NCBI GenBank assembly: GCA_004299555.1
Contig: SCQU01000023.1
Coordinates: 124,001 to 188,000 of the forward strand
DNA length: 64,000 bases
Direction: 5' to 3'
Source: Rhodanobacteraceae bacterium
Lineage (GTDB): Bacteria > Pseudomonadota > Gammaproteobacteria > Xanthomonadales > Rhodanobacteraceae
In this document: piece by piece, positions 30,999-41,043 of the stretch
Position numbering within the stretch: position 1 is the stretch's first letter
How the letters are laid out: each line of letters opens with the position of its first letter
Program-made: the position numbers and the translations under genes
The notes under the pieces: generated by a model
What the model was told of the DNA's origin: nothing
The model's input: only the letters and a program-made list of their open reading frames with translations
The model's database searches: none

Positions 30999-31502
<504 letters not shown>

Positions 31503-31510
31503 CTAAAAAC

Positions 31511-31600
31511 CGGGCCCGGGATGGCCCTTTGGACGGTCGTGCGCGATGTAGCCAAATGCACACGCGGGAATTCAACGAAGCCGCCATCATGGACGAACGC
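31511..31600. repeat. Direct repeat copy 2 (about 90 bp)
   Basis: Second copy, 16 bp after the first. On the minus strand both copies translate into similar short frames (AASLN...W-HR-PS motifs), but neither has a ribosome site, so I treat them as non-coding intergenic repeats. Confidence 0.6.
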
Positions 31601-31697
31601 GCCGCCATGTAGGAAAATCCCTACCCTATTGCAAGCTGCGCACCGATGGTCGCGCCCCTCCCGGCGCCTTAACCTGTGCGCGCATCGAGGCTACGAC

Positions 31698-31946
31698 ATG
31701 ATTGACGTGCACTCCATAGACCAACTCGCGCACCGGCTGGCTACCTTGGTTCCTCCAGGACTGGCCCAGGCGCGGGATGACATGGAAGCCAACTTCAAGG
31801 ATGTGCTGGCGCAGGGATTGCGCCGCCTCGACCTTGTCACGCGCGAGGAATTCGACGCCCAGCGCGCCGTGCTGGAGCGGACGCGCAAACAAGTCACGCA
31901 CCTTGAAACGCGTGTGACCGAGCTCGAAACCGCGCGAAAGGTGTAA
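31698..31946 (+). CDS. ubiK: Ubiquinone biosynthesis accessory factor UbiK (BMFP family)
   Basis: The 82-residue protein begins MIDVHSIDQLAHRLATLVPPG at ATG 31698 and ends in a long coiled coil (about 45-80, REEFDAQRAVLERTRKQVTHLETRVTELE), the BMFP/YqiC hallmark. UbiK binds UbiJ and helps assemble the ubiquinone hydroxylation complex under aerobic conditions. A longer upstream frame runs through the direct repeats and is not coding. It lies between glnB and comM, a conserved order. Confidence 0.88.
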   Translation: MIDVHSIDQLAHRLATLVPPGLAQARDDMEANFKDVLAQGLRRLDLVTREEFDAQRAVLERTRKQVTHLETRVTELETARKV

Positions 31947-32107
31947 CCCTTCTCGACAAAGGCGGTGACGCCCGCAAGTAATCGCGCGCGGCGTTTCCGA
32001 CCGGCGACGCCGATCGTGTTGACTCAAGGCCACGTCCCGCCGCGGGCACCCAAGCGGCCCGTCACGGCCTGACTTTCGCCCCAAGCCACGCAGGGAATGC
32101 GAGTGAC

Positions 32108-33625
32108 ATGAGTCTTGCAGTGGCGCTCACAAGGGCCTCCGAAGGTGTCGCAGCACCACTGGTGACGGTTGAAGTCCACCTGTCCGGCGGGCTGCCCGGC
32201 ACCTCCATCGTAGGCCTGCCGGAAGCCGCCGTGCGCGAAGCGCGCGACCGCGTACGCGTCGCGATCCAGAACACCCAGTTCGAGTACCCGGCCCGCCGCG
32301 TGACGGTCAACCTGGCACCCGCGGAACTGCCCAAGAACGGCGGCCGCTTCGACCTTGCCATCGCGCTCGGCATCCTTGCCGCGGGCGGCCAACTACCCCG
32401 CGAGTCCCTGCAGGGCTGTGAATTTCTCGGCGAGCTCGCGCTGTCGGGCGAGCTGCGGCCGGTGCCGGGCGTGCTGCCGGCACTGCTGCGCGCCCGCGGC
32501 GGCCGGCGCTGCATCATCGTACCGCAGGCCAACGCCGACGAGGCCGGGCTGCTGGGTGACATCGATGTGCGGGTCGCGCGCACGCTGGCGGAGGTTTGCG
32601 CGCACCTGCGCGGCGCCGAGCCGCTGCCGCCGCCCCAGCCCACACCAGCTCCCCGCGCATCCGGCGCGCTGCCCGATCTCGCCGACGTACGCGGCCAGCT
32701 GGGCGCCCGCCGCGCCCTTGAAATTGCCGCCGTCGGCGGTCACCACCTGCTGTTGATCGGCCCGCCGGGTACCGGCAAATCCATGCTGGCGCAGCGCCTG
32801 CCCGGCATCCTGCCCCCGCTCACCGATGCCGAGGCCATCGAAGCGTGCGCGGTGCGTTCGGCCGCCGGCGAGCCTTTCGACATACACGCCTGGCACCAAC
32901 GCCCATACCGGGCGCCGCACCACACGGCATCGGGCGTTGCACTGGTCGGTGGCGGCTCGCACCCGCGCCCGGGCGAGATTTCACTTGCCCACCACGGTGT
33001 GCTGTTTCTGGATGAACTGCCGGAATTTGATCGCCATGTGCTGGAAGTGCTGCGCGAGCCGCTGGAATCCGGCCACATCGTGATTTCGCGCGCGGCACAC
33101 CAGGCGAAGTTTCCTGCGCGTTTCCAGCTGGTCGCGGCCATGAATCCCTGTCCGTGCGGTTACGCTGGCGACCCCGGTGGCCGCTGCCATTGCACGCCCG
33201 ACTCCATCGCGCGCTACCGCGGACGCATTTCCGGCCCGCTGCTGGATCGGATCGACATCCTGTGCGAAGTACCGCGCGTGCCGCTGGCCGAGCTCAACGC
33301 CGAACGCGGCGCCACGGATGAAGCGTCCGCCACGGTGCGCGCGCGGGTTACCAACGCGCGAAGCGTCGCCATGCAGCGCGCCGGCAAGCCCAACGGCCTG
33401 CTCGGCACGCGCGAGATCGAACGCGATTGCGCACTCGGCCCTGCCGAGCGCACGCTGCTCGAGCGCGCGCTGGACAAGCTGGGTTTGTCGGCCCGCGCGT
33501 ACCACCGGGTCCTGCGCGTCGCCCGCAGCATCGCGGACCTTGCCGGCACCGACCGCATCGCGCGCGAGCATCTGGCCGAGGCCATCCAATACCGGCGCGC
33601 CGATGCCGCCAGCACGGCGCGGTAA
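32108..33625 (+). CDS. comM: YifB/ComM family Mg-chelatase-like AAA+ ATPase
   Basis: ComM is a hexameric branch-migration helicase that extends the recombination heteroduplex during natural transformation. The 505-residue protein has an N-terminal LonC-like domain (about 1-170, with VEVHLSGGLPGTSIVGLPEAAVREARDRVR), then Walker A GPPGTGKSMLA (about 219-229), the Mg-chelatase signature YRAPHHTASGVALVGGG, Walker B GVLFLDELPEFDRHVLEVLREPLE and the zinc cysteine cluster NPCPCGYAGDPGGRCHCTP. Presence of comM does not by itself show competence. It is convergent with the peptide maturation gene, 18 bp away. Confidence 0.94.
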   Translation: MSLAVALTRASEGVAAPLVTVEVHLSGGLPGTSIVGLPEAAVREARDRVRVAIQNTQFEYPARRVTVNLAPAELPKNGGRFDLAIALGILAAGGQLPRESLQGCEFLGELALSGELRPVPGVLPALLRARGGRRCIIVPQANADEAGLLGDIDVRVARTLAEVCAHLRGAEPLPPPQPTPAPRASGALPDLADVRGQLGARRALEIAAVGGHHLLLIGPPGTGKSMLAQRLPGILPPLTDAEAIEACAVRSAAGEPFDIHAWHQRPYRAPHHTASGVALVGGGSHPRPGEISLAHHGVLFLDELPEFDRHVLEVLREPLESGHIVISRAAHQAKFPARFQLVAAMNPCPCGYAGDPGGRCHCTPDSIARYRGRISGPLLDRIDILCEVPRVPLAELNAERGATDEASATVRARVTNARSVAMQRAGKPNGLLGTREIERDCALGPAERTLLERALDKLGLSARAYHRVLRVARSIADLAGTDRIAREHLAEAIQYRRADAASTAR

Positions 33626-33643
33626 CCAACGCACCGCCGGGGG

Positions 33644-34819
33644 CTAGGGCCACGCCTGGTGCGCCGGGTCAAACTCGACCGTCACCTTGGCTTGCGCCCG
33701 CACACCGAAACCACACACGCACAATGGACCCTCGGCCATGGGTTCCAACCCGAACGCCCACTCGATCTCGACCTCGTTGATCGCGGCGGTGATGAAGGCA
33801 CCCAGGTCCAGCTCCGTGGCGGCGAGATACAGCGCCTGCGACAGGTGCCCTGCATCCAGGATCACCGCGCGATAGGCCTTGGCGTGATTACGGTATTTCC
33901 AGAAATTCCGCTCGAAGCGTGCCACCAGCGCGATCTGCACGGGCGCCGCCGCGTAGTAGGCCTGCGTGGCAACGAAGCGGCCCGCCAGCGCCAGCGCGGC
34001 TTCCCTGTCCAGTTCGCCCAACAGCTCCAGCGCATGATCGACCGGATGGTAGTGATACAAGCCCGGCGGAATGCCCTCGACCCGCTGCACCAGGAGATAC
34101 GCTTCGGTCGCGTGCAAGCCGCCCGCCGAGGGCACGCTTTTTTTCAGCAGCTGCACGCCGGGCGCGTAATCACTGACCGCGCGCGCCCCGAACGCGCGAT
34201 ACAACATCGCCGAGAACACGTCCCGCGCGAGCGGCGCGGTAACGTAATTGCGGCAGGTCACACGGCGTTCCAGCAACGCATCCAGCGACGATGGCGACGG
34301 CCTGTCCAGCGGCAGCCGGCGCTCCGCCGCCGCGCGCGCATTCACCACCGGCGGTGCGGGGCCCAGGCGTTCCAGAAAGGACTGTTCGCTGGTCTCAGCG
34401 AACAGCCGTTCGGCGGCTTCGGTGTCCACGTCGCGCCAGCGGGTGTGCCGGTGCATCACCGCCGGCAGCCCGCGCCAATGCACCGCGCGCACGGCTGCGT
34501 CCGCTTGGGCACATTGTCGTGACATCGCGTCTGCCGGTTCCTGCGCGATCAACAATCCTTTCGCCAACAGCGCGTCCAGCACCGCGCGCGGATGCCGTTG
34601 CGACAACGCCTCGAACGCTTGCCAATGTCCGGGCGACAACGCGCCCAGCACCGCGACCTCGGCCGCGTCCAGCGGGATTTCATCATCGCAATGCGCCGCC
34701 AGCGCTACCCATTGCAATCTCTCGCGGACGCCGGTTTCGCCCGCCGCAAGCTCAGCAAAATCGAAGTCGACGGATTCGCGCGGCTCAACCAGAACCATCG
34801 CGCAACGGCGTACCTGCAT
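33644..34819 (-). CDS. SagB-like peptide maturation dehydrogenase (RiPP enzyme)
   Basis: The 391-residue protein is a nitroreductase-fold, FMN-dependent dehydrogenase of the SagB-type group; I recognise it as the family named putative peptide maturation dehydrogenase. SagB oxidises azoline rings to azoles in thiazole/oxazole-modified peptides. Here the N-terminal ~150 residues are a winged-helix-like leader-binding part (LDAAEVAVLGALSPGHWQAFEAL), and the SagB-like domain (about 185-380) has RRVTCRNYVTAPL, VPSAGGLHATEAYLLVQRVEGIPPGLYHYHP and the cofactor-region ILDAGHLSQALYLAATELDLGAF. No cyclodehydratase (YcaO) is nearby. The start is ATG 34819 (MQVRRCAMVLVEPRE) with GGGGGC upstream. It is divergent from the precursor gene, 222 bp apart. 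Confidence 0.82.
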   Translation of the reverse strand: MQVRRCAMVLVEPRESVDFDFAELAAGETGVRERLQWVALAAHCDDEIPLDAAEVAVLGALSPGHWQAFEALSQRHPRAVLDALLAKGLLIAQEPADAMSRQCAQADAAVRAVHWRGLPAVMHRHTRWRDVDTEAAERLFAETSEQSFLERLGPAPPVVNARAAAERRLPLDRPSPSSLDALLERRVTCRNYVTAPLARDVFSAMLYRAFGARAVSDYAPGVQLLKKSVPSAGGLHATEAYLLVQRVEGIPPGLYHYHPVDHALELLGELDREAALALAGRFVATQAYYAAAPVQIALVARFERNFWKYRNHAKAYRAVILDAGHLSQALYLAATELDLGAFITAAINEVEIEWAFGLEPMAEGPLCVCGFGVRAQAKVTVEFDPAHQAWP

Positions 34820-34865
34820 GCAACTTGCCCCCATCAGGAAAAGGCTGAACAACTTCGCTCTTTGC

Positions 34866-34940
34866 CGTCATCCCGGCGGAAGCCGGCATCCAGTTGTTTC
34901 GCCCGCCCGGAGCTGGATCCCGGCTTCCGCCGGCATGACG
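34866..34940. repeat. REP-type inverted pair (REPIN-like hairpin)
   Basis: Two 28-bp arms, 34866-34893 and 34913-34940, are inverted copies with only two mismatches around a 19-bp centre. Each arm contains the palindromic core CCGGCGGAAGCCGG and ends in CGTCAT on the outside. It lies in the divergent gap between the dehydrogenase and the precursor peptide and could form a 75-base hairpin. Confidence 0.85.
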
Positions 34941-35041
34941 AAGCTGAAGACATGACGGGTCGTGCAAACTTTCTTGGCTTGCACCGCCGATGGCCCGATT
35001 CGTGCATTGTGCCATCTACCACCCACGTTCAGGGACACACC

Positions 35042-35332
35042 ATGGCCGTTTCAAAGTTGACCCACGAGCACTCGCTCGCGCTGCTGCACAAGCTTGCCAC
35101 CGACGACGGTTTCCGCAGCCGCTACGAGCAAAGTCCCGCGGCCGCGCTGGCTGAGCTGGGAGTGCCGCAGGAAACCATCGCCAATCTCAAGGCGTCGTGC
35201 CGCCAGCCAACCACTTTGGCCGCAAAGAGCCACTTCGCGGACGCGCACAAGGCCTTGTCCCAGGCGGCGGCAGACGCCTGCGTAGGCATGTTCATTCCAA
35301 CCATCAAGTTAGACTTCGGCCCAAGTCGTTAG
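35042..35332 (+). CDS. NHLP-leader-like RiPP precursor peptide
   Basis: The 96-residue product starts at ATG 35042 with AGGGA nine bases upstream. Residues 5-52 form a helical leader of nitrile-hydratase-like type (LTHEHSLALLHKLATDDGFRS...PAAALAELGVPQETI), the same layout as the family called putative modified peptide or NHLP-related RiPP peptide. The leader is followed by C53 and a Pro/Thr stretch, and the C-terminal part holds C80 in ADACVGMFIPTIKLDFGPSR. The likely core is the segment from about 75 to 96, but no cleavage motif such as GG is evident. It is divergent from the SagB-like gene, and its stop overlaps that of the cyclase gene by four bases, so all three genes are physically locked together. 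The modified residues and bioactivity are unknown. Confidence 0.82.
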   Translation: MAVSKLTHEHSLALLHKLATDDGFRSRYEQSPAAALAELGVPQETIANLKASCRQPTTLAAKSHFADAHKALSQAAADACVGMFIPTIKLDFGPSR

Positions 35333-38001
35333 GCGCGCGGCGCACGGGGTTTGGAATCCAATACCTTGAGTCGGTGCGCGATCCATGGAAGCTGATCGGC
35401 GCCCGGCCAAGCGACAAGAAATTTTGCGAGCTCATTCCGACTGCCTGCGTCATCACCGGTTGCATTCGATATTTCGGCGGCCCGCAGCAACGCTAAATCA
35501 GCGTAAGCCACATTGAAAGGGGTCATCATTTGTTGCGCGTTGAACTCAAGGTACGCGCGCCCGCGATGCGCCGCCAACCAACGGGCCTCCGCCAAGGCAT
35601 CACTTGGTGCGCTCGAGGACGCATAAGCATCCATTAGCGCTACATGCGTAATGCAGAGCTCGCTCCCATTTACAAGCGGCCTCAGAATCGCGATGGCACC
35701 TCGCGGATTGCCGGCTACCTGTTCAATCTCAGCCTCGGCCACGGATCGCAAATTGTTCAGAACCGGTGTGTCCGCATCCGACCTTGGGCCAACTGCTGTC
35801 AACGCATTGCGCGCAAGGTTCGCGTCGCCGGCGCGTGCTGCCAGATACGCCGCGAACGTAAGCTGTAACTTAAACTCAGCACGATCAGTCGCGTGGGCTG
35901 TCGCCAGGGCTTTCGCCTCTCGGGCAACATACTTGGTCAGCGCCGAAATCTGTTCCTTCACGGGTGTCCCGTCGACGGCGGCCAGACCCAGGCGCATGCC
36001 TTCGTAGCGGCCCGCAAAGCGTGGGCCGATGGCAGTTGCCTGATCGACGGTAGCCTTGAGTAGAGCAGCCGCGTTGGACCAATCACCCTGATCGACCGCC
36101 AACGCTACAGTCGTTGCCGCGACGCCAATCTGAAAGCTTGAACTACTGGAGGCCTGTCCGTGATGTAGCATTGCCGTTGCATCCGCGAACCTGCGCTGCG
36201 CAGCATACGCACTCGCGTAGTATGCGTTTTGTGTATGCAGCCCCTGCTGGGACGAAGCCGAAAACGCTTGCAGTGCGCGTGCAAACTGATCCCCCTCCAC
36301 ATACAGCGCCCCCAACAAATAGTTGCTTGCCGCGTGGCTTGGATTCTTGATCGACAACGTGCGCTGAAGGTACGTCTGAGCAGCCTCAAATTGGTTCGCA
36401 TCTTCCCACAGAAAGTAGGCGTAGGCATTCAACCCCGGAGCGTAGTCTGGGTATACCGATGCCAGCATCTTCCATTTCGACAATGCCGCACCGGGCGCTT
36501 CATAACTCAACGCCATAGCGTCTACATACAACGCGTCCCGTACTGACAGCCGCGAACGGTCGGCCTGCGCTGCGTGAATCTCCTGTAGGGCTTTCATGCG
36601 CTGGTCTTCGCCATCGAAAATCCTTGCTAGGTCGATATGCGCCAACGCGAAATGCGGATCAATCCGCAGAGCCTCATCGAAATATGCTTTGGCCCCCTTG
36701 AAATCCGCCGTGTCGTACGCCCGCTCCCCCAGCGAATACGCCTCCAGCGCATTCAAATCTGGCGTTGCCACCTTCGCCAACGGCATCGATTGCTTGGAGA
36801 CCATCGCCAGCGCTTCACCCAGCTTGCCGCGCAGTTGCTTGCTGACGCTGTCGAGGGAAGGCAGCACCGACCCCGTTCCCGTGCCGTCGGCGGACACGGA
36901 ATACACCGTGGCCTGGGTGTTGGGATCGATGACCTCGGCGGTGACGAGCACATGCCCGCCAACATCCGCGACCGTGGGCAGGATCAATGCGCGCGCGCCT
37001 TCGCGCAACGCAACCTGTGAACCGATGGCGCGATTGACGGCGGTCTTGTCGGGATTCAGTTGCATGCGCTGCAGCGTCTGCTGCACCGACTTCTCGGGCA
37101 GCACGTTGACGTACTGCGACTGCTCAAGGCTGATGCGCAGCGCGGTGTCGACCGACTGGTTGAACAGCGCATCGCCCGTCAGGTTGTGCACGTTGCCGAC
37201 CACCACCCAGTCGCGCGCGGCGAACGCCAGCGTGGGCGGACTTTGCAACAGCAGCCACGCGCCAACGCCAATGCCAATCGCCAGCACCGCGGCCTCGGCG
37301 GCCAGCGTCAACGGGCGCCGCCACCACGGCAGCACGCGCCTGGCGGTGCGGACGGATTTCGGCGCGTGCATGGGCGCCACCCCATCCTCGCCCACCTCGA
37401 CCACTTCCAGCGGGTCGGGCAAGCCCTTGAAAGTGTATTTGCCGTGGGATTTCCAGTGCACGCGCGGCGCGGCCTGCGCGCCAAGCTCACGCTCCGCCCG
37501 GTGCGCGAGGCCGGCAGCGGCGGACGACATCAGGATCTGCTGCGGCTGGGCCAGTTGCGCGAAGCGCGCCGCGATCGGTTTGGCCAAGCCTTCCACTTCG
37601 ATCGGCTTGGCGCCGCGCGCGACATCTTCGGCCGCGTTTTCCCAGATCACCACGTCGCCCATGTGGATGCCGACCCGCGCACGCACCACGACGCCTTCGG
37701 CGGCCGACAGGTGCCGCAGAGCCCGCTGGTAGTCCAACGCAAACGCGGCGGCCTGGATCGGGCGGTCGAACAGCAACAGAAAGCCGTCGGTCTTGTCGAT
37801 CTCGTGGCCCTGGTGCTGCTCGACCAGCGCGCGCGTCAGGCGATCGTGCTTGCGGATGATGTTGGCGGCGTTCTGGTCGCCCATGCGCTCGACCAGCGCG
37901 GTCGAATCGGCAATGTCGCACACCACCACGGTACGCAGCTGCGGCGTTGCCATGCGACCCGGACCGGGAGTGGTTTCGAGCTGGCGGATTTCGGCAGTCA
38001 T
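35329..38001 (-). CDS. Class III nucleotidyl cyclase-TPR protein of the peptide modification system
   Basis: The 890-residue protein has an N-terminal class III cyclase domain (about 20-195), one transmembrane helix (about 231-252) and a long C-terminal region with TPR-like repeats (about 380-880). I recognise it as the family named putative peptide modification system cyclase. Metal aspartate D29 (VVCDIADST), base-recognising K70 and D72 (DKTDGFLLLF) and R146 (KPIAARF) are present, but the usual Asn of the V-N-x-A-A-R motif is replaced by Pro, and the classic G-D pair reads T-D. Activity as an adenylate or guanylate cyclase is therefore plausible but unproven. The start is ATG 38001; longer readings run into an intergenic repeat. 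The TPR half (35.3-36.7 kb) is near 55-58 percent GC in the rows I counted, the cyclase half about 60-72. Confidence 0.84.
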   Translation of the reverse strand: MTAEIRQLETTPGPGRMATPQLRTVVVCDIADSTALVERMGDQNAANIIRKHDRLTRALVEQHQGHEIDKTDGFLLLFDRPIQAAAFALDYQRALRHLSAAEGVVVRARVGIHMGDVVIWENAAEDVARGAKPIEVEGLAKPIAARFAQLAQPQQILMSSAAAGLAHRAERELGAQAAPRVHWKSHGKYTFKGLPDPLEVVEVGEDGVAPMHAPKSVRTARRVLPWWRRPLTLAAEAAVLAIGIGVGAWLLLQSPPTLAFAARDWVVVGNVHNLTGDALFNQSVDTALRISLEQSQYVNVLPEKSVQQTLQRMQLNPDKTAVNRAIGSQVALREGARALILPTVADVGGHVLVTAEVIDPNTQATVYSVSADGTGTGSVLPSLDSVSKQLRGKLGEALAMVSKQSMPLAKVATPDLNALEAYSLGERAYDTADFKGAKAYFDEALRIDPHFALAHIDLARIFDGEDQRMKALQEIHAAQADRSRLSVRDALYVDAMALSYEAPGAALSKWKMLASVYPDYAPGLNAYAYFLWEDANQFEAAQTYLQRTLSIKNPSHAASNYLLGALYVEGDQFARALQAFSASSQQGLHTQNAYYASAYAAQRRFADATAMLHHGQASSSSSFQIGVAATTVALAVDQGDWSNAAALLKATVDQATAIGPRFAGRYEGMRLGLAAVDGTPVKEQISALTKYVAREAKALATAHATDRAEFKLQLTFAAYLAARAGDANLARNALTAVGPRSDADTPVLNNLRSVAEAEIEQVAGNPRGAIAILRPLVNGSELCITHVALMDAYASSSAPSDALAEARWLAAHRGRAYLEFNAQQMMTPFNVAYADLALLRAAEISNATGDDAGSRNELAKFLVAWPGADQLPWIAHRLKVLDSKPRAPRA

Positions 38002-38016
38002 GGTATTGCACTCGAT

Positions 38017-38129
38017 CCCATCTCCCTGTGGGAGAGGGTGGCGCGAAGCGCCGGGTGAGGGTCGGGCACGCGCGTTTGTCTGACCAGCGCGAACCCTCAC
38101 CCCCAACCCATCTCCCGCAGGGAGAGGGG
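38017..38129. repeat. Intergenic repeat with two TCTCCC-N3-GGGAGA hairpins
   Basis: TCTCCC-TGT-GGGAGA (38021-38035) and TCTCCC-GCA-GGGAGA (38111-38125) flank GGTGAGGGT and its inverted partner ACCCTCACC. The arms together form a larger dyad of a type often scattered in Xanthomonadales. It fills the gap between the GGDEF gene and the cyclase gene. Confidence 0.7.
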
Positions 38130-38132
38130 AGC

Positions 38133-39152
38133 TCAACTCATCACATGCGTGCCGTCGCCGCCGGAACCCTTGACGTGGTATAGCGCGCAGTCGGCTTCGC
38201 TGTACCACACCGACCACTCATCATCGTCGCGGCAGACATTGCCGCCCACGCTGACGCTCACCGTGAGCTGCGGCGCGGATTTGGCAAAACGCAACTGGCG
38301 CACGCCTTCGACGATGCGCATGGCGTGCGCGGTCAAATCGTGGCGGTCATGTACCTGCGTCAGCAACGCAAACTCATCACCGCCCAGCCGGCACGGCAGG
38401 TCGGTCGCGCTTGCGGCAGCCTGGATTTCCGATGCGATCGCGCACAGCACTTCATCGCCGGTCAGATGACCGTTGCGGTCGTTGATCTGCTTGAAGTGGT
38501 CAACGTCGATCAGCAGCAGTCCGAATTGCAGGCTGCGGTCGCGCACCTCGGTGGTGTTTTCGAGGAACTGGTACAAGCCGCGCCGATTGCAGAGTCCGGT
38601 GAGGTCGTCGGTGCACACCTGACGCCGTGCCAGCTGCAGCTGGTCGCGCGTCTGGCGCAACGAATCGAGCGTACGCATCAGGTCTTCGTTGCGCCGTTTG
38701 TAATTGGAGATGAGCTGGCGCTCGCTGGCCACGAGATAGGTGAACGAGCGCAGCATGAACTGCGCCATCTGCAGCGGTTCGCGTTGCAGCAACGTTTCGA
38801 ACCCGCCAGGGTCCAGGGCATGCACCACACACGGTTCTGCGGCAAGCGCGCTGCCCGAGCGTGCGTGATTGCCCACAAAGAGCGCAAGTTCGCCAAAGTA
38901 TTCTTCGGGGCCGATCAATTTGTCCGGCAGGTCACCGGCAAACTCCAGCAGCACACGACCGGACACGATCACGAACATGCTGCGGCCGTACTCGCCACGG
39001 TGAAATACCGCGTGGCCCGGTTCAAGCTCGAGGCGCCGGCCCGCGCTGCAGAACAGCGCCATCTCGCGCGCGGACAACTGGCGAGGCAAACGCCCCATGA
39101 CCGGAGTATCCGGCTGCGGGCCAGCAGGTCCCGCTGCACCTGTGTTCGACAT
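38133..39152 (-). CDS. cNMP-binding domain diguanylate cyclase (GGDEF)
   Basis: The 339-residue protein has an N-terminal cyclic-nucleotide-binding domain (about 20-135, with the phosphate cassette FGELALFVGNHARSGSALA), a linking coiled coil (about 148-178) and a C-terminal GGDEF domain (about 178-339). The active motif is intact (GGDEF, 257-261) with TDDLTGLCNRRG and DVDHFKQINDRNGH. The RxxD inhibitory site five residues before GGDEF is absent (SATD instead). It would make c-di-GMP in response to cAMP or cGMP. It lies upstream of the cyclase on the same strand, so cyclase product and sensor are encoded side by side, as I recall for the cGMP pathway of Xanthomonas campestris. The start ATG 39152 is the best fit; in-frame GTG 39164 has an AGAGGGG site upstream and is an alternative. 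Confidence 0.87.
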   Translation of the reverse strand: MSNTGAAGPAGPQPDTPVMGRLPRQLSAREMALFCSAGRRLELEPGHAVFHRGEYGRSMFVIVSGRVLLEFAGDLPDKLIGPEEYFGELALFVGNHARSGSALAAEPCVVHALDPGGFETLLQREPLQMAQFMLRSFTYLVASERQLISNYKRRNEDLMRTLDSLRQTRDQLQLARRQVCTDDLTGLCNRRGLYQFLENTTEVRDRSLQFGLLLIDVDHFKQINDRNGHLTGDEVLCAIASEIQAAASATDLPCRLGGDEFALLTQVHDRHDLTAHAMRIVEGVRQLRFAKSAPQLTVSVSVGGNVCRDDDEWSVWYSEADCALYHVKGSGGDGTHVMS

Positions 39153-39237
39153 CACGCTGGACACAGCCACCCCTCTGTACCAACCCCGGATCATACTCCG
39201 GCGGCCAGCCGCGCTGCACCTGTACCAATTGCGGGTA

Positions 39238-39855
39238 TCACACCCCTCGATATTTGCCCCGAAAAGGTGCATAGAAGGCGCGCAACGCGGCGAGGTCGGC
39301 ATCCTTGTCGGCGGTGGCGTGAAACAGCGGTCCGAGTCCGATCACCTTGCGCGGGTAGTCGAAATACGCGGGCAGGATCGGCACCTGCGCTTGCCGGGCA
39401 ATGTGCCAGAAACCGGACTTCCAGCGCCTGACCGCCTTGCGGGTCCCTTCAGGCTCAATGCAAAGCCACAACCGGTCAACGCGCTGGAAGCGGTCCACCA
39501 TCTGCCGCACCACATCGCCTTTCGCACCGCGCGTGATCGGCACGCCGCCAAGCATCCGCAACAAACTGCCCAGCGGCCAGCCAAACAGCTCGCGCTTGGC
39601 CATGAACGAGATATCGAGCCCCATGGCAACCTTGAACAACAACCCCCAGAAGCCGTCCCACCAGGACGAATGCGGGGCGACGATCACCACCAGTTTGGCC
39701 ACGTCCGGAAATTCGCCTTCCAGGCGCCAGCCGCCGGCCTCGGCCCACGCCCGGTACGCATGCCGCCAGCGGCGATCGGGAAACTGCGGCACGGCCGGCG
39801 GCAGGCGCGCCGGCAGCGCCGAGGTTCGAACCGCGGCGCTCAATCTTCGCTCCAT
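39238..39855 (-). CDS. PlsC-like 1-acylglycerol-phosphate-type acyltransferase
   Basis: The 205-residue protein has the acyltransferase catalytic motif H-x4-D as HSSWWD (H62, D67) in VAPHSSWWDGFWG, and the glycerophosphate-binding EGTR in CIEPEGTRKAVRRWKSGF. It is short and lacks clear transmembrane helices, fitting the lysophospholipid acyltransferase-like group that may act on lipids or lipid A-like compounds at the membrane surface. Its exact substrate is unknown. Its start overlaps the end of arfB by 16 bp, and it lies about 85 bp upstream of the GGDEF gene on the same strand. Confidence 0.82.
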   Translation of the reverse strand: MERRLSAAVRTSALPARLPPAVPQFPDRRWRHAYRAWAEAGGWRLEGEFPDVAKLVVIVAPHSSWWDGFWGLLFKVAMGLDISFMAKRELFGWPLGSLLRMLGGVPITRGAKGDVVRQMVDRFQRVDRLWLCIEPEGTRKAVRRWKSGFWHIARQAQVPILPAYFDYPRKVIGLGPLFHATADKDADLAALRAFYAPFRGKYRGV

Positions 39856-40259
39856 GCAGGGCCGCGACTGCGCTTGACGCTGCCGCGCTGCTTCTTGCCG
39901 GCCAGCCGGCGTTCCTTCGACGCGCGCGTGGGCCTGGTCGCCACGCGCCGCTTGGGCGGTACCAGCGCGGCGCGGATGATCGTGACCAGGCGTGCTCGCG
40001 CATCTTCGCGATTGCGCGGCTGCTCGCGGAAGCGGCGCGCCTGGATCACCAGCACGCCATCGTCGCTGAGGCGGTGATCGCGCCGTGCGAGCAGCCGTGC
40101 GCGCACCGCAGCGGGCAACGCGGATGAACGCGCCACGTCAAACCGCAATTCGACCGCGCTTTCGGTGCGGTTGACGTGTTGCCCGCCCGGCCCGTCCGCG
40201 CGCGTAAACCGTTCGATCAGTTCAGACTCGGGAATGTCGATGGCCGCGGAAACGCGCAT
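39840..40259 (-). CDS. arfB: Alternative ribosome-rescue factor ArfB (YaeJ)
   Basis: ArfB is a codon-independent peptidyl-tRNA hydrolase that frees ribosomes stalled on broken mRNA. The 139-residue protein has the catalytic GGQ motif in RADGPGGQHVNRTESAVELRF and the basic C-terminal tail (PPKRRVATRPTRASKERRLAGKKQRG) that enters the mRNA channel. The start is ATG 40259 (MRVSAAIDIPE). The tail ends in an unusual GPAWSED. Both hallmarks make the call safe; a full release factor would be longer. Confidence 0.93.
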   Translation of the reverse strand: MRVSAAIDIPESELIERFTRADGPGGQHVNRTESAVELRFDVARSSALPAAVRARLLARRDHRLSDDGVLVIQARRFREQPRNREDARARLVTIIRAALVPPKRRVATRPTRASKERRLAGKKQRGSVKRSRGPAWSED

Positions 40260-40284
40260 GGTGCAAGGGTAGATGAAAGCGGCC

Positions 40285-41043
40285 TCACGCGGCAGGCCAC
40301 GCCAGTTCCAGATGCGTGTTGTTGAACTCGCGATCATCCAGCGCCCCGGCACGCGTCACCCGCAAGCCACCGGGCACGTCCTCGACATCGACCGTCGATC
40401 CATCGCCAAGGCGCAGCCCACGCGCCTGCAGGTCCACCAGCCGCGCCGCCACGGCGCCGGCGCGCTGCACGTCCGCGTGTGGCACGCGCCGAATGCTGAT
40501 GTCGGGCCGCGCAAACTTGCGCATGCCGCGGGTCCTGACCCACGCGCTGCCATCGGCCTCGTTCTGGCACAGCACCAGCACATGGTTGCGCGGCGCCGAC
40601 CGCTCGGCGCCCGCGTAGCGCGTGCGCCAGGCATCGGCCGCAAAAATTTCCAGGATCTGCGGATCGACCACCACCGCCCCGCCCGCCTCAAGCAGCGCCG
40701 CAATGACACCCAGGGTGTCGCCAAGGTATGCCAGCGAATCCGCGTCGGCCAACTCGCCACGCACAAGCAGGCACTCGGGCGCACTGCGCGCGGTTGCAAA
40801 CGCGACGGGATCGGCGTCCCGCAGGATGCCACCCAGCGCGCCACGCAACGGATGCCCGTCCCAGTGGGCGAGCATGGCTTTCGGGATGCGCCGCAGCTCG
40901 ACGCCCGCCGGCAGGCCGCGGCCACCGCAGGCCGGCAGGTCCGGCTTGAGTTCGGCCGCAAAGGTGCCAAACACGCAATACAGCAGCATCGCCTTTGCCT
41001 CGCCGCGGGTCCACTGCGGACGTGTCCAATCGGCTGCGGCCAT
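40285..41043 (-). CDS. Conserved-looking protein of unknown function
   Basis: The 252-residue protein starts at ATG 41043 with GGAGG upstream. It has no signal peptide or transmembrane segment. The N-terminal MAAADWTRPQWTRGEAKAMLLYCVFGTF and the later LGVIAALLEAGGAVVVDPQILEIFAADAWR suggest a mixed alpha/beta fold. RNHVLVLCQNEADGSAWVRTRGMRKFARPDISIRRV is the most distinctive segment. I do not recognise a named family with confidence. It is divergent from rep across a 67-bp gap. Codon use matches the window, so it is very likely a real gene. Confidence 0.6.
   Translation of the reverse strand: MAAADWTRPQWTRGEAKAMLLYCVFGTFAAELKPDLPACGGRGLPAGVELRRIPKAMLAHWDGHPLRGALGGILRDADPVAFATARSAPECLLVRGELADADSLAYLGDTLGVIAALLEAGGAVVVDPQILEIFAADAWRTRYAGAERSAPRNHVLVLCQNEADGSAWVRTRGMRKFARPDISIRRVPHADVQRAGAVAARLVDLQARGLRLGDGSTVDVEDVPGGLRVTRAGALDDREFNNTHLELAWPAA

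Follow-up and report, generated by a model that had tools for sequence, protein, structure and literature searches.

We analysed a window of 64,000 nucleotides from a Rhodanobacteraceae bacterium (assembly GCA_004299555.1, contig SCQU01000023.1, positions 124,001 to 188,000; the source genome comprises 2.98 Mb in 29 contigs), which carries at positions 33644-39152 four genes that encode a SagB-like dehydrogenase, a precursor peptide with a leader of the nitrile hydratase leader peptide (NHLP) type, a nucleotidyl cyclase with tetratricopeptide repeats (TPRs), and a GGDEF protein with a domain for binding cyclic nucleotide monophosphates (cNMP). We find that this locus evolves in two halves: the cyclase domain and the GGDEF protein follow genera, whereas the TPR half of the cyclase and the dehydrogenase do not in two of the four genera tested, and a cassette of TPR half, peptide and dehydrogenase has been replaced between close relatives. 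The original prediction, made from the DNA alone, had placed four packed genes here with a 4-bp overlap of the peptide and cyclase stop codons, and this is borne out by the coordinates and by hidden Markov model (HMM) matches to their families; the three NCBIfam models it named as a check, TIGR04509, TIGR04510 and TIGR04511, are all exceeded at their curated cut-offs. The features of the locus are the following.

33644..34819, minus strand: SagB-like FMN-dependent dehydrogenase (TIGR04511, 476.9 bits, cut-off 240), made up of an N-terminal domain with the strand and helix order of a RiPP recognition element (RRE; model residues 9-86; RiPP, ribosomally synthesised and post-translationally modified peptide) and a nitroreductase domain; K308-Y309 invariant
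34820..35041: putative divergent promoter region between dehydrogenase and peptide (divergent in 77 pairs, median gap 138 bp)
35042-35332, plus strand: peptide gene, whole (TIGR04509, 60.2 bits, cut-off 34, residues 7-76)
35042..35200, plus strand: NHLP-type leader, peptide residues 1-53 (79-89% identity in five of the six nearest relatives, 49% in locus L124)
35201..35332, plus strand: variable C-terminal core of the peptide (28-56% identity to the six nearest relatives; C..M..P pattern there)
35329-38001, minus strand: cyclase gene, whole (TIGR04510, 856.2 bits, cut-off 400; protein of 890 residues)
35332..36801, minus strand: distal TPR array of the cyclase, predicted extracytoplasmic, hypervariable (40-62% protein identity against 80-90% for the remainder of the cyclase in the six nearest relatives; DNA identity drops at about 36800)
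36802..37239, minus strand: segment of the outer half nearest the membrane, well kept in the near clade (82-90% identity in the six nearest relatives; match to PF13036, LpoB, below cut-off)
37246..37302, minus strand: predicted transmembrane helix, cyclase residues 234-252, with more positive residues on the cyclase side
37342..38001, minus strand: class III nucleotidyl cyclase domain (PF00211, 22.6 bits; D29 and D72 invariant in 26 of 26 aligned cyclases; the orthologue XC_0250 makes cGMP)
38133..39152, minus strand: cNMP-binding and GGDEF protein, XC_0249 orthologue (PF00027, 51.7 bits; PF00990, 121.9 bits)

Layout and distribution

The peptide gene alone lies on the plus strand, a point on which the original prediction was silent; it converges on the cyclase gene, the two ends overlapping tail to tail, and diverges from the dehydrogenase gene. 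Gene order along the operon is cNMP-GGDEF, cyclase, peptide (convergent) and dehydrogenase (divergent from the peptide), and this layout (cNMP-GGDEF> cyclase> <peptide dehydrogenase>) is conserved across the regions mapped, which number 85, L121 not among them, plus the window. The cNMP-GGDEF gene stands ahead of the cyclase in 75 of 83 cyclase-holding regions, cyclase and peptide converge in 83 pairs with overlapping ends in 41 of them, and the region map holds no case of a cyclase followed by a peptide on the same strand (L117 has a different order). Peptide and dehydrogenase are codirectional in 8 pairs and divergent in the 77 given above. Computed directly from these regions, the convergent and divergent arrangement of the genes is not chance.

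Conserved co-occurrence, which the original prediction had put forward as a further check, holds across the order: each of the three TIGR families is above cut-off in 82 of 299 genomes sampled from it, and all three occur together in 80 (tables compared by hand). Exceptions to the trio are G278 (cyclase and GGDEF only), G277 (peptide below cut-off), G261 (a contig end truncates the cyclase) and G292 (fragments); in the first of these, at locus L080, the GGDEF and cyclase genes directly adjoin YifB, with peptide and dehydrogenase gone. At the other extreme, locus L111 of genome G237 holds ten peptide and five dehydrogenase matches, some incomplete, around one full cyclase. In a phylum-wide sample TIGR04511 is above cut-off in 8 of 398 genomes, all 8 from the order. 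A scan of named genomes, whose best 80 matches fall in 78 loci and include some genomes also present in the order sample, finds the cyclase in 71 of the 72 non-actinobacterial loci, the exception (L164) beginning at a contig end. Viral carriage of the dehydrogenase is rejected: of 95 stretches that fit a pattern, tblastn showed none to be a relative.

The likeness to the NCBIfam trio is thus one of scores above the curated cut-offs and of genes that co-occur and adjoin; the difference lies in the naming, since those families are called a putative peptide modification system, whereas the "cyclase" here is a nucleotidyl cyclase of predicted receptor type. The TIGR04510 "cyclase" probably makes a second messenger and is not a peptide cyclase.

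The locus evolves in two halves

Mirror-tree and tree analyses cover the 62 of 86 regions that hold exactly one copy of all four genes. Mean distances are 0.36 for the cyclase domain, 0.57 for the GGDEF protein, 0.61 for the dehydrogenase, 0.74 for the TPR half and 0.92 for the peptide core. Pairwise distances correlate at 0.74 between cyclase domain and GGDEF protein and at 0.78 between TPR half and dehydrogenase, and those of the peptide core correlate at 0.72 with the TPR half, at 0.66 with the dehydrogenase and at 0.42 with the cyclase domain. Rate alone is not the cause of this division, because the GGDEF protein and the dehydrogenase are alike in rate and belong to different halves. Among 56 pairs of loci with near-identical output halves (pairs that are not independent of one another), the peptide core correlates at 0.97 with the distal TPRs and at 0.92 with the N-terminal part of the dehydrogenase, and at 0.14 with the cyclase domain and 0.19 with the GGDEF protein. 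Overlap of the reading frames was considered as the source of the correlation between peptide and TPR half, and is rejected, as the correlation remains when the last 60 residues are removed, and also in 30 loci whose reading frames do not overlap.

The trees, which are quick trees without bootstraps and with long-branch warnings for the output half, divide the locus in the same place. Genus codes g64, g55, g58 and g24 each form one clade in the tree of cyclase domain plus GGDEF, and g64 and g55 are rejected as clades in the TPR and dehydrogenase trees (approximately unbiased test, p from 3.4e-5 downward). Seven codirectional single-copy loci form one clade for the TPR half (support 89, unstarred) and for the dehydrogenase (support 100); on the output half the same grouping would take seven changes, and it is rejected there (p 0.00098).

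Replacement of the cassette is visible directly in the DNA. Loci L060 (genome G243) and L088 (genome G175), of the same genus code, are 97.3% identical over 7.65 kb that run from upstream through the GGDEF gene, the cyclase domain and the helix to 21 residues past the helix; the next ~3.5 kb, comprising TPR half, peptide and dehydrogenase, are unalignable on either strand, with the dehydrogenase in opposite orientation, and identity returns 250 bp past the dehydrogenase at 98.7% over 6.4 kb. Across 37 same-genus pairs from seven genus codes, all within set distance limits, the left edges of such replacements lie 18-276 residues past the helix. Right edges, available for 31 pairs (6 of the 37 are without a right-hand match; one strand was compared, and both strands in three pairs), lie 29 to 250 bp beyond the dehydrogenase in 19, at or inside it in 5 and farther on in 7.

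In the window's own clade, taken as the six best of the 78 named loci, the set that changes is smaller. Identity between the window and these relatives is 80-87% in the cyclase domain, 82-90% in the proximal outer part, 40-62% in the distal TPRs and 28-56% in the peptide core. L124 is 40% identical to the window in the distal TPRs and 49% in the leader, and its cyclase domain (85%), proximal part (88%) and two dehydrogenase parts (75 and 83%) are all as in the other relatives. Compared with L124, the DNA of L125 is 89.5% identical from the cyclase start to about residue 428, then has only a 53-base match over 1.65 kb, and, from the peptide start onwards and through the dehydrogenase, aligns once more at 84%. 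Similarity between these two is lost over the distal TPRs and the peptide only, so that those two changed together and the dehydrogenase did not; in the window's clade the enzyme is outside the set that changed. By co-inheritance, peptide and dehydrogenase belong to the input side, where the outer TPR half of the cyclase is the matching part.

Predicted receptor, cGMP relay and peptide chemistry

In all 26 aligned cyclases the strongest hydrophobic segment sits between the cyclase domain and the TPR half, a second hydrophobic window over 1.6 is absent from 22 and weaker in 4, and positive charge is richer on the cyclase-domain side. The hydrophobic helix and the charge bias together predict that the TPR half lies outside the cytoplasm, and the cyclase looks like a membrane receptor. 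Two loci carry, after the dehydrogenase, a second TPR half with a hydrophobic segment and no cyclase domain (L067:10935-12860 and L069:11166-13091). A further gene in the source genome itself (L121:5804-8824) encodes a protein kinase (assigned by eye), a membrane segment and a TPR half related to that of the cyclase, and this paralogue seems, from its domain order, to be the same sensor reused on another output. Within the cyclase domain, the nearly invariant Pro142 and Arg146 of the window protein fall where we take the transition-state residues to lie. Two Asp residues are invariant in the family, D29 and D72 by the numbering of the window protein; for XC_0250 the Xanthomonas study gives the metal ligands as D41 and D71 (PMC3770947), an assignment that may be shifted.

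The predicted topology invites an explanation, which we consider rather improbable, in which phage, predators or hosts drive the diversification of the exposed TPR half, and the peptide and dehydrogenase hitch-hike as its neighbours. Hypervariability does fall in the part predicted to lie outside the cell, and linkage would carry neighbours along; but the peptide core is more variable than the TPRs (0.92 against 0.74) though it is encoded by a gene of its own on the opposite strand, and the changed stretch of L124 includes the peptide and spares the dehydrogenase.

The original prediction had noted a likeness to a cGMP pathway of Xanthomonas, and this likeness is upheld: the same cyclase and cNMP-GGDEF genes adjoin in both, and by sequence the GGDEF/cyclase pair is orthologous to the XC_0249/XC_0250 relay, as judged through the X. 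hortorum proteins. The X. hortorum cNMP-GGDEF protein matches XC_0249 by number at 7 of 7 residues (F73, E90, L91, H98, V142, N145, E146) and its cyclase matches XC_0250 at 5 of 6 (D41, D71, L73, A150, A161; residue 157 is I, not L), with 357 residues identical between the X. hortorum and window cyclases. In the window, the cNMP domain keeps five of the seven cGMP-contact residues, with S143 in place of N145 and L140 in place of V142, and it retains the guanine-reading Glu (E144) of the N145-E146 diad, which is conserved in xanthomonads (PMC3770947). The X. hortorum cNMP-GGDEF protein also matches PDB entry 5h5o, named a diguanylate cyclase, over all 129 residues of the chain; 5h5o may be the XC_0249 domain, whose structure was deposited as 4KG1 (PMC3770947).

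XC_0250 makes cGMP and not cAMP, and cGMP stimulates the synthesis of cyclic di-GMP (c-di-GMP) by XC_0249 (PMC3770947); together with the retained E144, this narrows the second messenger to cGMP. The expectation that a modified peptide is made or sensed in step with cGMP or cAMP and c-di-GMP therefore keeps cGMP, by orthology, loses cAMP and is narrowed by co-inheritance to the input side. Guanylate cyclase and cGMP-stimulated diguanylate cyclase activity at this locus are assumed from XC_0250 and XC_0249. XC_0250 has 886 residues with TPRs at 413-625, which correspond to the distal part of the window cyclase, and its TPR part is described as a domain whose function is uncharacterised; biofilm can be restored by the cyclase domain on its own (the purified construct being residues 1-220), so that the outer half is dispensable for output (PMC3770947). 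The words peptide, dehydrogenase, synteny, XC_0251, membrane and periplasm are absent from the main text of that paper, and its abstract, Discussion, Methods and first part of Results name no input signal for the cGMP pathway (PMC3770947).

The direction of control implied by the original prediction, in which the cyclase acts on the peptide and cGMP or c-di-GMP regulates production of a RiPP whose target is elsewhere, now appears very improbable. The shared locus is consistent with it, as is an 8-of-10 match to a CRP-type palindrome in 18 of 62 GGDEF upstream regions against 6% in shuffles; such a match occurs, however, in 2 of 55 peptide-dehydrogenase intergenic regions against 3% in simple shuffles, and exchange of the outer half of the cyclase together with the peptide would be left unexplained. 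A CRP-type site between peptide and dehydrogenase is accordingly rejected, 2 of 55 being not above expectation, with one of the two reaching 9 of 10. Sixteen of the same 55 regions hold the word GCCGATA, against about 1 in shuffles, in constant orientation towards the peptide; all of these loci come from genus codes g35 and g64, and many are close; in ten g35 loci the word stands 35 to 48 bases before the peptide start. Rfam families were sought in 31000-41000 of the window, and none was found.

The model of the dehydrogenase (predicted local distance difference test score, pLDDT, 93.1) is structurally closest to McbC, ThcOx and BmdC. Its N-terminal secondary structure runs E9-19, E31-41, E47-50, H52-60, H69-75 and H78-86 (E, strand; H, helix), an order over residues 9-86 that we take to be that of an RRE. 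Alignments to ThcOx and BmdC start at residue 1 with root-mean-square deviations of 12 and 5, and most rows cover one domain (169-391), with the N-terminal domain barely covered. The invariant K308-Y309 is presumably the K-Y pair that is catalytic in azoline dehydrogenases. In contrast to McbC, ThcOx (CyaGox) and BmdC, the enzyme has no linked YcaO cyclodehydratase; the original prediction had seen none nearby, and we find none in the whole source genome, nor in 67 of 74 carrier genomes tested (of the 82 TIGR04511 carriers in the sample, 8 were left out, G000 among them). Azole formation with a YcaO is therefore rejected for most carriers tested, and the locus differs in this from linear azol(in)e peptides, or thiazole/oxazole-modified microcins (TOMMs), which are defined by that enzyme. 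The peptides number 107 distinct of 111, after removal of one fragment and duplicates; 92 of them contain a Cys anywhere and 36 have one within the last 25 residues.

As to export, the claim that no protease lies nearby stands for the neighbourhood and fails genome-wide, where two C39 peptidase domains occur on another contig in open reading frames of ~270 residues. The linked C39 peptidase-ABC (ATP-binding cassette) exporter that defines NHLP RiPPs exported by peptidase-containing ABC transporters (PCATs) was not found here, and because C39 domains are absent from 17 of 61 carrier genomes tested (of the 82 carriers), a C39 exporter is rejected as a required part.

Candidate peptide signalling and competing explanations

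We favour, with a little better than even confidence, the reading that peptide and TPR sensor are a matched ligand and receptor gating cGMP, and that peptide, enzyme and sensor half form an allelic cassette. The dehydrogenase, probably via its RRE-like N-terminal domain, would take the NHLP peptide and oxidise a residue in its C-terminal half; the modified peptide, once exported, would be a ligand specific to the distal TPRs on the far side of the membrane helix, and its binding would alter the intracellular guanylate cyclase. We infer that the peptide is modified, exported and bound by the TPR domain, and likewise infer the sign of the response. cGMP would then switch the adjacent cNMP-GGDEF protein and so change c-di-GMP, and exchange of the cassette while the output half stays would yield lineages that differ in the peptide they answer. 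The observation behind the original prediction is confirmed, and its interpretation as a whole is partly supported and sharpened.

The closest parallel is ComQXPA of Bacillus, in which the modifying enzyme, the peptide and the input domain of the receptor are variable and the output domain is conserved, the order of conservation being ComA>ComP>ComQ>ComX (PMC4008528). The mean distances reported above, from the cyclase domain to the peptide core, parallel that order, and here too enzyme, peptide and sensor half are swapped as one allele set against a constant output, in the window's clade without change of the enzyme. Peptide pherotypes are known to be marked by such joint variation of peptide, modifying enzyme and sensor half while the output half stays constant. 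The differences are that a guanylate cyclase stands here for the histidine kinase, TPRs for the polytopic sensor and a dehydrogenase for the prenyltransferase, that the hosts are Gram-negative, and that signalling here is a prediction.

Several observations weigh against the ligand reading. The 37 pairs used for the breakpoints were picked for similar cyclase domains, which makes edges before the helix unlikely by choice; with the GGDEF protein as sole criterion there are 78 close pairs, of which 61 are dissimilar in the TPR half; among these the cyclase domains are 0 to 0.36 apart (median 0.17), and some exchanges may reach farther into the cyclase domain. No pair has TPR halves within a distance of 0.3 and GGDEF proteins more than 0.4 apart, so that no recent donor is seen, and since no distant pair shares a near-identical cassette, old shared polymorphism is indistinguishable from transfer. 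As a partial alternative, physical linkage alone would make neighbours co-vary, and the breakpoints could mirror only where homologous DNA is conserved. Among the flanking genes (YifB, UbiK, a P-II regulator and an acyltransferase), YifB, compared at 25 loci, correlates at 0.65 with the cyclase domain and at 0.63 with the dehydrogenase, and at 0.45 with the GGDEF protein and 0.44-0.49 with the TPR parts. Genus code g58 is one clade in the TPR and dehydrogenase trees, as is g24 in the dehydrogenase tree. The results are divided on a closer tie of the peptide to the TPR half than to the dehydrogenase: a distance-based partial Mantel test (0.57 for the distal TPRs against 0.17 and 0.02 for the two dehydrogenase parts) and L124 speak for it, and a rank-based version speaks against it, the partial link of peptide and TPRs being weak (0.08, 0.13) and that of peptide and dehydrogenase stronger (0.39). 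On the chemical side, no conserved core residue fit for azole chemistry occurs among the 107 distinct peptides, and the lack of a linked exporter, with C39 domains missing from some carriers, counts in the same direction.

Also on this side of the balance are loci in which the parts occur separately. G278 retains GGDEF protein and cyclase without peptide and dehydrogenase, and among the best 80 matches six Streptomyces and Kribbella loci (L167, L170, L171, L176, L177, L188) hold peptide and dehydrogenase, still divergent, with no cyclase nearby; these have 1 to 5 peptide copies, with cores close to Xanthomonadaceae ones. The actinobacterial dehydrogenases form one clade within a starred set of 9 that includes 3 Lysobacterales, a nesting from which we conclude that the peptide-dehydrogenase pair probably moved without the cyclase, and these pairs suggest that peptide and enzyme can serve without the receptor. 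They fit a competition module, in our view an unlikely explanation. On that view the modified peptide would act as a toxin, either antibacterial or for kin discrimination, the TPR half would serve as the immunity or danger sensor matched to it, and polymorphism would arise from toxin-immunity matching. Allelic exchange suits toxin and immunity as well as it suits pheromone and receptor, and the extra TPR-only copies in L067 and L069 would be in keeping with immunity; yet the near-constant presence of the cyclase in non-actinobacterial named loci (71 of 72) points to signalling, and the neighbourhood of the locus in the window showed no recognisable exporter or killing gene.

For the Lysobacterales at large, Xanthomonas included, we regard it as an even bet that a polymorphic, oxidatively modified NHLP peptide is the ligand of a transmembrane guanylate cyclase, with lineage-specific pherotypes arising by cassette swap past the membrane helix. 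The gene families were already known. The open-licence literature searched gave nothing on their connection to the cGMP pathway, on the receptor topology or on the cassette replacement, and no PMC paper was found there for nitrile hydratase leader peptide with Xanthomonas, or for XC_0251, XC_0252 or NHLP together with XC_0250. One paper on graspetides mentions a SagB-like enzyme with ATP-grasp enzymes, and adenylate cyclases in another context.

The locus brings together a candidate ligand, a candidate modifying enzyme and a candidate binding domain for the Xanthomonas cGMP pathway, and cognate as well as non-cognate pairs occur naturally, for example in L124 and L125. The locus would also define a SagB-like dehydrogenase that acts on a leader peptide with no YcaO as partner, which is an open problem in RiPP chemistry. 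If the ligand reading is true, the missing input signal of the Xanthomonas cGMP pathway would be supplied, and bacteria would possess peptide signalling through a receptor guanylate cyclase, a counterpart of the receptor guanylate cyclases for peptide hormones; peptide pherotypes would extend to Gram-negative proteobacteria, and NHLP peptides would gain a role in signalling.

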